Source: Bryobacteraceae bacterium (GTDB taxonomy: Bacteria; Acidobacteriota; Terriglobia; Bryobacterales; Bryobacteraceae). Taken from it: a DNA stretch of 5,462 nucleotides. The position numbers and the translations under genes are program-made. Every line of letters starts with the position of its first letter. Position 1 is the first letter of the stretch. Location: assembly GCA_030039005.1 (NCBI GenBank), contig JASHQT010000437.1, positions 1 to 5,462 of the forward strand, written 5' to 3'. Of this stretch, positions 462 through 2,428 are shown one piece after another. The notes beneath the pieces were generated by a model. The model saw only the letters and a list, made by a program, of their open reading frames with translations. It ran no database searches and had not been told where the DNA came from.

Positions 462-650
462 CTAACGGAGCCCTCTTGGAGGCACGAATACCGCATAGGC
501 GTTTAGGGCAAGGCCGCAGGTACCTGCCACAATCAACGTACACTGCGGGATCCACGCCAGGGTTGGGTTGAGCGCATCGAAGTTCACGACCGCCGCGGCC
601 GCAATGACGAGAAATGCCCTCTGCCAACCAATATATTGCCTAACGGTCAT
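462..650 (-). CDS. 62-residue two-helix membrane protein, paralogue of the N-terminus of the upstream gene
   Basis: I do not recognise a named family. The protein starts MTVRQYIGWQRAF. It has two predicted membrane helices, roughly residues 12-27 and 36-56, joined by a short NPTL-containing turn, and ends with a short PPRGLR tail. It aligns with the first ~52 residues of the next gene upstream when that one is counted from its second Met. Identical positions include Tyr6, Gln10, Ala12, Phe24, the Pro-Thr-Leu turn, a Cys, a Gly and an L-A-x-N-x-Y block in helix 2. The start is supported by GGAGG (655-659) four bases upstream of the ATG; a TTG seven codons earlier is less likely. It is the last gene of the cluster before leuS, 87 bases after its paralogue ends. 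Conservation of a paralogous module argues that it is real despite its size. Confidence 0.65.
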   Translation of the reverse strand: MTVRQYIGWQRAFLVIAAAAVVNFDALNPTLAWIPQCTLIVAGTCGLALNAYAVFVPPRGLR

Positions 651-737: not shown

Positions 738-1430
738 TTAGTGGATGAGAGCCGAACCAGGAGGGTTTCGGAGTTCTTCTGGCCCGGGTGCCCGGACTTC
801 GAGACCTCGATATGGGCGTCTCTCAATCGGTGAGATCCGTAAGCCGCCGCTTGGCATGAGTGTAACTTCGAAGTCGGTGCCGTGTGGGCTAAGTGCCTTC
901 GCGATTTCGACAGCCATCTTGGTGTTTGCGGCTGATAGATACACGACCCCTTGGTCCTCTGCCGAGGCCACAGAGTGTACCCACCCTCGAACCCGAAGGG
1001 TCGGGGACGACGCCGGGCCCGCTGCCGGCTCTTCGCCCCACGACGACCACTGCCAAGCTGTGTTCAAGTGGTGGTGACGCGCCACCCAGAGATAGTTCAT
1101 CGAGTAGGGCAGGCGCCCTGTAATAGTTTGCTCGGAGGGGAGTTCATGTAGACTTTTATCGAGCCCAGCATCCTCGGTATCGGAGGTAAGCGGCTTCGCA
1201 TCACCGGCACCATCGCTGTTTTCGGGGCGCTGCTTCAGACGAACATATACGTTCGCGGCCAACGCCGCGATCCCAGACAGCATTAGCGCGCATCCAGGCA
1301 GTGTTGGACTCCCGAAACGATTAAAAGATAGAATTGCCAGTATGGCAACCAGAAAGCACGCCTTCTGAACGTGTCCGTAGGTGGTTAGGCTCATCGCTCC
1401 TCTAACATTGTAGTGGGTTTCAAATGGCAT
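738..1430 (-). CDS. Two-helix membrane protein with a soluble C-terminal domain of unknown function (230 residues)
   Basis: No family is recognised. Counting from the second in-frame Met (codon at 1392-1394), membrane helices lie at about 9-24 and 33-51. A polar, disordered-looking linker (about 55-85) follows, then a soluble domain to residue 218. That domain has a Trp/His-rich patch (WVARHHHLNTAWQWSSW) and an alternating strand-helix-strand stretch (GVVYLSAANTKMAVEIAKAL, then FEVTLMPSGGLRI). The tail is presumably cytoplasmic. Two starts are plausible. The ATG at 1428-1430 has AGGAG four bases upstream and overlaps the preceding gene by 11 bases. The ATG at 1392-1394 matches the start of the 62-residue paralogue but has AGGAG only two bases away. 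I chose the former on ribosome-site grounds. The gene lies in the same cluster as the COMM-like frame and is probably co-transcribed with it. Confidence 0.72.
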   Translation of the reverse strand: MPFETHYNVRGAMSLTTYGHVQKACFLVAILAILSFNRFGSPTLPGCALMLSGIAALAANVYVRLKQRPENSDGAGDAKPLTSDTEDAGLDKSLHELPSEQTITGRLPYSMNYLWVARHHHLNTAWQWSSWGEEPAAGPASSPTLRVRGWVHSVASAEDQGVVYLSAANTKMAVEIAKALSPHGTDFEVTLMPSGGLRISPIERRPYRGLEVRAPGPEELRNPPGSALIH

Positions 1431-1737
1431 CTCTCTCCTGCGCCCGTGATCTCTTCGGCTGCCCCGTGCTAAGCCCGGCTGTCCACCCAAGCCCTGCTGC
1501 GAATGCTTGCTGAACGTGCTGTGGGTTCGTCAGCCACAGCGACACGACCGTACCAATACCCAAGAATATCGCTAGCTGAAGAAAGTACCGCGCGGTCTCG
1601 TTCAGCTTGGGTACGTGGTCGAATAGGTCAGAGAGGTAATAGACACGGAGGCGGCCAGGTGTCTCCTTAGACCATAGCAGTATCGCGCCGACCAGGGCGC
1701 CGACGATGAGCCAACTCGGTTGGTCAAAGTTAAACAT
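1420..1737 (-). CDS. Small multi-helix inner-membrane protein (105 residues), coupled to the COMM-like frame
   Basis: No named family is recognised. The protein begins MFNFDQPSW. A first membrane helix spans about residues 9-22 (WLIVGALVGAILLW). A charged, Tyr-rich loop follows (GRLRVYYLSDLFDHVPKL, 28-45), then a second helix at about 51-69 (FLQLAIFLGIGTVVSLWL). A third, weaker hydrophobic stretch lies at about 75-90 and is glycine-rich. The C-terminus is basic and polar. The ATG at 1735-1737 overlaps the end of the COMM-like frame by 8 bases (its TAA is at 1730-1732), the usual sign of translational coupling. A GGGAG lies about ten bases upstream. A GTG ten codons earlier (1765-1767) is in frame but would lengthen the overlap. 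The sequence shows nothing enzymatic; a membrane anchor or partner for the COMM-like protein is an inference from position. Confidence 0.75.
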   Translation of the reverse strand: MFNFDQPSWLIVGALVGAILLWSKETPGRLRVYYLSDLFDHVPKLNETARYFLQLAIFLGIGTVVSLWLTNPQHVQQAFAAGLGWTAGLSTGQPKRSRAQERDAI

Positions 1738-2056
1738 TCTCGGCTGACTCCCTGGCAGATCTCGCACCCGCCCACCTCTCAGCTGCCTCGAAGCGCTTCA
1801 GGAGCCGGCTCAAGTGCTCCATCAGTTCTTGTATCTGTTCCTTCGCCACCTGGAACACGATCTCTGAATCCTCGTCGGTGCCGAGATGAATGATGGCAAC
1901 GGGCACCGCAAGTCTAACCTCGTCGGCGTCGAGCAGCAGTCGAATGTCAACTACACTCCTCAGATCCCTAAACGCCGGGAGGATCGTCGTCTCCAGCCCG
2001 CGTCGCTTACCGATCTCGGAGAGGGTAGACTGATTCCTCCTAACAACGTCGACTAA
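1730..2056 (-). pseudogene. COMM-domain-like C-terminal half, in frame after a TAA, with no usable start codon
   Basis: After the stop at 2057-2059 the same frame stays open for 108 codons and ends in TAA at 1730-1732. A helical connector comes first (LVDVVRRNQSTLSEIGKRRG). Residues 26-50 (LPAF, then RSVVDIRLLL) lead into VPVAIIHLGT and EIVFQVAKEQIQELMEHL, followed by a basic Ala-rich tail. This order (LP turn, strand ending in V-D-I, strand after an invariant-looking Pro, strand, then a long C-terminal helix) is that of the eukaryotic COMM domain. From memory, human COMMD1 has a very similar PVAIIELELG segment. The conserved Trp of the first strand is replaced here by Ser or Val. AGGAGG lies at 2036-2041, but no ATG, GTG or TTG follows at useful spacing. 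The first GTG would start inside the domain. I therefore read this as the back half of the preceding gene. Confidence 0.6.
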
Positions 2057-2428
2057 TTAGAGGATGATATTGGCGTCCGCTGGGTCGAGGGCCTTGTGCT
2101 GTACGAGCGCCTGCACGAGCTCAGCGCCGGTGGTAGAGGCGCGGGTCAGCACCAGCGAACTGATGACCGCTATGACGGAAAGTGCACGAGAAGCGTCCTC
2201 TGCTGACAGCTTCAAGTGCGAGGATGCTTCCTCGATAATCTTGAGATTGGGGCGACTCCGAGACGCCGTGGACGCGACAAGGGTAAGCAGTTGGTCTTCC
2301 GAAGGGTTCGCTCTTCCTAGGGTGGCGACGCCACTTTTCAGAAACGTCCTGAAATCATCGGGGAGCTTCGCGATTGAAATCGCCAGTGGTATGTCCGGAT
2401 CGACGGTCAGTTCGTAGGAGTCCGGCAT
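2057..2428 (-). CDS. N-terminal helical half of a COMMD-like protein (123 residues, truncated by TAA)
   Basis: The translation begins MPDSYELTVDPDIPLAI. It is predicted almost entirely helical: amphipathic segments at about 30-38, 44-58, 61-75 and 77-95, then LVQALVQHKALDPADANIIL to the stop. In eukaryotic COMMD proteins a helical N-terminal (HN) domain of about this size precedes the COMM domain. The last helices here (short helix, 'D-P-A-D-A', next helix) continue naturally into the frame downstream of the TAA. The ATG at 2426-2428 has no good ribosome site upstream, and an in-frame TAG at 2453-2455 limits any extension. Transcription may start very near the ATG from a TTGACA at 2463-2468 (minus strand), giving an almost leaderless message. 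It is the first gene of the cluster. Seen alone, I would call it hypothetical; the COMMD reading depends on joining it to 1730-2056. Confidence 0.7.
   Translation of the reverse strand: MPDSYELTVDPDIPLAISIAKLPDDFRTFLKSGVATLGRANPSEDQLLTLVASTASRSRPNLKIIEEASSHLKLSAEDASRALSVIAVISSLVLTRASTTGAELVQALVQHKALDPADANIIL

Follow-up and report, generated by a model that had tools for sequence, protein, structure and literature searches.

An interrupted gene for a probable COMMD-fold protein beside membrane-protein genes in a Bryobacteraceae contig

The human proteins COMMD1-10 of the Commander/CCC complex (8f2r, 8f2u, 8p0w, 8esd) consist of a helical HN domain followed by a COMM domain, in about 190-220 amino acids. 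Passages of the 2023 Commander paper (PMC10187114) describe a hetero-decamer entwined with CCDC22 and CCDC93 and a strictly conserved COMM tryptophan; they also state that sequence homologues of COMMDs were not identified in Archaea or Bacteria, and place the origin of the family on the eukaryotic stem. Sections of a second paper (PMC6089597) likewise give the tryptophan as strictly conserved, and report the chlamydial proteins CT584 and Cpn0803, which are hexameric and have a helical and an alpha/beta domain, as structural relatives of Commd9. Bacterial COMMD-like proteins are already known, at least from the structures 9q6a and 9q6c. Here we describe a COMMD-like gene in a 5,462-nucleotide stretch of DNA (contig JASHQT010000437.1, assembly GCA_030039005.1) from a member of the Bryobacteraceae, called the window below. 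The proteins of the window family resemble the human COMMDs in domain layout and length, but lack the tryptophan.

We think it likely that a bacterial gene for a COMMD-fold protein is present in the window as an interrupted copy; in its relatives, the product may form a ring held at the inner membrane by operon partners. The observed part of this explanation comprises intact relatives that are homologous over nearly the whole length, a COMMD-type fold in the HN half, the ranking of COMMDs by the structural model, and a recurring overlap with a small membrane-protein gene (gene 2).

An interrupted gene and its intact relatives

The COMMD-like gene occupies positions 2428-1730 of the minus strand. 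Its two open reading frames (ORFs), 2428 to 2060 and 2056 to 1733, lie in the identical reading frame and are split by a single TAA at 2059-2057. The 123 codons ahead of this stop (2060..2428) encode an HN-like helical half, and the 108 codons after it (1733..2056, with a terminal TAA at 1732-1730) a COMM-like half. A preliminary description of this DNA had joined the two frames into a protein of 232 positions; stop-free homologues that span the TAA bear this out, and the motifs quoted there are present in the read-through. A search for intact homologues in other Acidobacteriota, proposed at the same time, was run and found stop-free proteins in two genomes, G541 and G193.

The G541 protein, found with the read-through among 200 genomes of the family of G001 (the genome of contig L001), has no internal stop and aligns with residues 14-225 at 29% identity (E 2e-18). 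In total, 20 of these 200 genomes match at E<=0.1, the 19 others at E 0.001 to 0.1; at one of the weak matches (L095), the ORFs are kinase-like by eye. The G193 protein is intact, with 221 amino acids, and aligns with residues 4-219 of the window protein at 26% identity (BLASTP E 1e-20 in a single comparison). Relatives of this kind are sparse: G193 and G541 are the two genomes that match at E<=0.001 in a phylum sample of 396, the family of G541 has the COMMD-like gene in one of 237 genomes, and a search of 257 genomes at the level of the order returned G541 and two weak matches (E 0.001-0.002).

A profile of the window and G541 sequences retrieved 12 database rows: P0011 is the protein of G541, P0022 is the first half of the window gene itself, and ten are further proteins. 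Apart from P0022, these proteins have 223-252 amino acids, with one exception of 188, and are 46-100% identical to the G541 protein. The intact relatives probably encode a soluble protein in which a helical HN domain is followed by a COMM-like one, with about 220 residues in all. Other searches were negative: none of the 1810 candidates in a protein search with the read-through reached E<=10, scans of genomes and of viral contigs and an NCBIfam search gave nothing useful, and a viral scan with the family alignment gave no confirmed match.

On the sequence evidence, the window ORFs are one interrupted gene, because homologues cross the stop and the second half lacks an early in-frame start. The interruption itself could be a sequencing or assembly error, in which case the organism's gene would be intact and working. 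The frame continues unchanged across the TAA, as does the third-position guanine-plus-cytosine (GC) content (0.683 before, 0.685 after), and a single contig, of which the window seems to be the whole, is the sole witness to the stop, but the sequence itself gives no sign of error; we give this possibility roughly one chance in three. Unless the TAA is such an error, the window copy probably makes no working protein. That the frames are instead two separate genes, one for an HN protein and one for a COMM protein, each standing alone, is highly improbable, since after the TAA no ATG, GTG or TTG is met in frame until codon 51 of the COMM-like half (the first, a GTG at 1906, would yield 58 amino acids without the first COMM strand), all 11 aligned database relatives have a residue at the TAA position, and the G541 and G193 proteins are each encoded by a single frame.

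Sequence and fold evidence for and against a COMM domain

The HN half of the structural model has the COMMD-type helical HN fold, in agreement with the all-helical first half that was predicted earlier, and the whole window model ranks COMMDs in a structure search. The first 11 Foldseek rows cover 195-235 aligned columns, including the COMM region, with high root-mean-square deviation (rmsd), and the best match is a bacterial COMMD-like octamer. The VIA structure rows cover chiefly residues 7-144. In the COMM region, the model has strands at 155-167 and 170-183 and a helix at 194-230, at low confidence. CT584 and Cpn0803 are absent among the structure rows listed for the window model, which does not thereby exclude a relation.

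At the sequence level, a PDB search with the family profile gave a single protein below E 0.01, COMMD5, at E 5e-4 when the window is in the profile. The hidden Markov model (HMM) alignment to COMMD5 is in register across both halves, and places the window's DLRSVVD opposite DFRWRVD of COMMD5. The C-terminal half alone scores 20.1 bits (E 7e-4) against the Pfam COMM_domain profile (PF07258), and the read-through 18.5 bits.

Several results limit or count against assignment to the COMMDs. The score of 20.1 bits is below the curated cut-off of 22.4 bits; among the 12 members of the family, one reaches E<=1 with Pfam COMM and one has COMM_HN at 0.079, while the G193 protein has COMM_HN at 0.22 and no COMM match. 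The COMMD5 match weakens to E 0.008 once G193 is added to the profile, and once the window row is left out, the profile built from the 11 database proteins retrieves no COMMD from the PDB, so this match depends on the window row. Nor did single-sequence phmmer searches of the PDB retrieve a COMMD, whether the query was the read-through or its second half. The conserved COMM tryptophan (WRVD) is absent: in the register of the COMMD5 alignment, position 158 holds S in the window protein, T in that of G193, and one of V, I and L in each of the 11 database members. In the model, block pLDDT is 39-57 at residues 141-200 and 56-68 in the last helix, and the full-length Foldseek rows have TM scores of about 0.3-0.4 and rmsd of 12-20 Å, the tight rows being confined to the HN domain. 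Finally, an HHalign comparison of the window family with the bacterial COMM family P0001-P0010 (see below) gave a non-significant probability of 0.1-0.2%, with alignments roughly in register. In HMMER searches with a search space of 20, the P0001-P0010 profile found the window row at E 0.0045, out of register; the A9 profile found P0001 at E 0.016, and the A8 profile found nothing under 1.

PF07258 is also not specific for COMMDs. It gives 19-25 bits on exonuclease III-like proteins, around a NIGWR(I/L)DY segment, and this too counts against reading much into the window's score; we therefore rejected the Pfam score alone as proof of a COMMD. In the phylum sample, nine of the 396 genomes match PF07258 at E<=0.01, two of them over the cut-off, and one of the nine (L085) is an HN-COMM protein. 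Exonuclease III-like frames are recognizable by eye at L086 (24.8 bits, over the cut-off), L087, L089, L091, L092 and L093, and L091, when tested, matched Exo_endo_phos. L088 and L090 have internal stops, and their matches look like chance. Among 14 genomes from loci with Acidobacteriota titles, none is over the cut-off and four match at E<=1, compared with five of 14 controls; 34 genomes of other loci gave no match at E<=0.01, but the controls were silent too, so this shows no absence.

These points could mean that the HN-type helical domain is real and the C-terminal half an unrelated strand-helix region that resembles COMM: that half is poorly modelled, its Pfam score is under the cut-off and within the range of false matches, and neither the tryptophan nor, in 11 of the 12 members, a COMM match is present. 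We regard this as unlikely, given the COMMD5 alignment in register over both halves, the span of the first 11 Foldseek rows, and the strands and long helix predicted where they would be expected. Convergence, by which a helix-bundle and strand-helix layout would have arisen independently of common descent with COMMDs, appears less likely again. We hold it very likely that the gene product has a COMMD-type fold, and it is probably homologous to COMMDs. Because its profile scores are weak and window-dependent and the tryptophan is missing, we do not class it as a canonical COMMD. The earlier reading as a bacterial COMMD-like protein is partly supported; the structure comparison recovered the HN fold and left the COMM half loose and of low confidence, and the profile check gave the window-dependent COMMD5 match beside a sub-threshold Pfam score.

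A membrane operon and its possible role

The preliminary description also placed small membrane proteins beside the COMMD-like gene, and this observation recurs in other genomes. Gene 2 (1420..1737, minus strand) encodes a membrane protein of 105 amino acids with two hydrophobic segments, and gene 3 (738..1394, minus strand) a second one of 218 amino acids, with an N-terminal hydrophobic pair and a soluble C-terminal part. Both were taken to start at an ATG, although longer GTG or TTG starts exist. With ATG starts, gene 2 begins before the COMMD-like gene has ended, the two sharing 8 bases in the window, 4 in G541 and 19 in G193, and in all three readable contexts gene 3 follows. The gene 2 product of the window matches that of G193 at 38% identity over 84 residues (E 3e-14) and that of G541 at 33% over 80 (E 1e-14); a hydropathy scan found two hydrophobic segments in the window and G193 proteins, and one in that of G541. 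For gene 3, the positional equivalent in G541 is 22% identical (E 0.05, or 0.22 in a second comparison), and that in G193 gave E 3.5, or 0.005 under other settings. From these sequences, the N-terminal part of gene 3 is likely, though not proven, to be homologous across contexts.

The pairing with gene 2 is not exclusive, because gene 2 relatives stand without a COMMD-like ORF in two genomes. At E<=0.01, three of the 237 family genomes have such a relative: G541, G589 (L123; E 2e-7) and G616 (L124; E 5e-4). In G589 it lies beside a protein kinase, followed by another membrane-type ORF, and in G616 it follows a HEAT-repeat-like ORF at a contig end; the ORF lists of both show no COMMD-like ORF beside it, which tells against a fixed coupling. 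The G616 copy also adjoins ORFs that by eye resemble an insertion sequence (IS) transposase.

The third-position GC content of the cassette is 0.60-0.69 in the window, compared with 0.74 and 0.81 in neighbours, 0.45-0.57 in G193 (five neighbours, 0.63-0.83) and 0.67-0.70 in G541 (one neighbour, 0.82). These low values, together with the sparse occurrence, suggest lateral spread of the cassette. Such features, with the gene 2 relatives beside a kinase and a HEAT-repeat protein, would also suit a conflict or defence system that pairs a sensor with a membrane effector, and in which the COMMD-like protein is one of several exchangeable cytosolic partners. In contrast, none of the seven proteins tested gave a PADLOC family at E<=1, no viral contig gave a confirmed match, and a plasmid collection searched by protein with the intact relative P0012 gave no match, nor did it with P0001 of the family P0001-P0010; we consider a defence role rather unlikely.

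For the preferred reading, a membrane-held ring, we propose the following working. COMM domains would pair, and copies would close into a homo-oligomer with the HN domains facing outward as binding sites, by analogy with the bacterial octamer 9q6a and with the human ring as described in parts of PMC10187114. Those parts place the conserved tryptophan at contacts of the human ring, and because it is absent in the window family, the contacts of any such ring must differ. The ring may be anchored to the inner membrane, on its cytoplasmic side, by the product of gene 2 and probably also by the gene 3 product; these membrane proteins would be translated off the same message as the COMMD-like protein, and the tethered ring could act as scaffold or adaptor for some membrane process. 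We advance the membrane-tethered scaffold tentatively, at slightly under even chances, and naming any particular process would more probably be wrong than right by a wide margin. In the window copy, the TAA would cut the product short behind its HN half and leave it unable to form the ring; the start of gene 2 lies inside the end of the COMMD-like gene, and translational coupling would be lost.

Elsewhere in the window, all on the minus strand, a MacB/FtsX-like permease occupies 5197-2651, and a short membrane ORF of 62 amino acids (462..650) lies between gene 3 and a frame at 335-3 that we take to be the start of leuS. The best genome match of this frame is 81% identical over 111 residues, on the Bryobacteraceae contig L001. 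The short ORF resembles the N-terminal part of gene 3 (BLASTP E 3e-7, single comparison), and is possibly a partial duplicate of it. Around the operon, promoters and terminators are about as numerous as expected by chance.

Comparison with known COMMD systems

In the open-access literature (preprints were outside the scope), we did not find a tryptophan-less branch with a membrane operon, nor any paper on bacterial COMMD proteins besides the chlamydial comparison in PMC6089597, although one on 9q6a or 9za1 may have appeared elsewhere. The membrane gene that overlaps the COMMD-like one offers a concrete candidate partner for a bacterial COMMD-like protein. With a bacterial protein over both the COMM and COMM_HN cut-offs (L085/P0001, below), a divergent family with a membrane-gene partner, and the 9q6a octamer, the origin of the disease-linked eukaryotic ring becomes testable. 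One speculative scenario, which we consider doubtful, is that HN-COMM rings are a bacterial invention that predates eukaryotes and exists in at least two or three deep branches, a WRVD-bearing one in a secretion locus and a tryptophan-less one hard-wired to inner-membrane proteins, and that the Commander ring was recruited from a membrane-associated bacterial scaffold.

The top Foldseek match of the window model is MBK5214510, an octameric protein from Flavobacteriaceae (9q6a and 9q6c, released 2025-10-01), with E 4e-4 and 19% identity over 213 columns. Like the window protein it is prokaryotic, and it is COMMD-like according to the depositors' title. It is 12% identical to the window protein in the VIA alignment and absent from the sequence-search rows.

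The PDB entries 9za1 and 9za2 ('COMM domain-containing protein') and the bacterial family P0001-P0010 have the same domain order as the window family, and similar length. In 9za1 and 9za2, a weak second stretch past the main domain aligns once more with the final COMM strands and may be a repeat of a COMM-type unit. One named member of P0001-P0010 is from Acidobacteria bacterium Mor1, and a class-level search for this family found it in one of 41 genomes, G073 itself. The Mor1 protein has 206 amino acids (L085 1471-2091, minus strand; L116 approximately 9964-10581), passes the Pfam cut-offs for COMM and COMM_HN, has the WRVD motif, and argues more strongly for a bacterial COMMD than the window protein does. 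Its locus encodes type VI secretion components: VgrG-like, PAAR-like and DUF2169 proteins, a kinase and TssK/VasE.

The two families differ in several respects. W-R-V/I-D is kept in all ten of P0001-P0010, and all ten reach E<=1 with Pfam COMM, the best of them 3.9e-11, unlike the window family; P0001 passes the Pfam cut-off, whereas the window family does not. The one mapped locus of P0001-P0010 is a type VI secretion cluster, whereas the window family is found in a small membrane operon.
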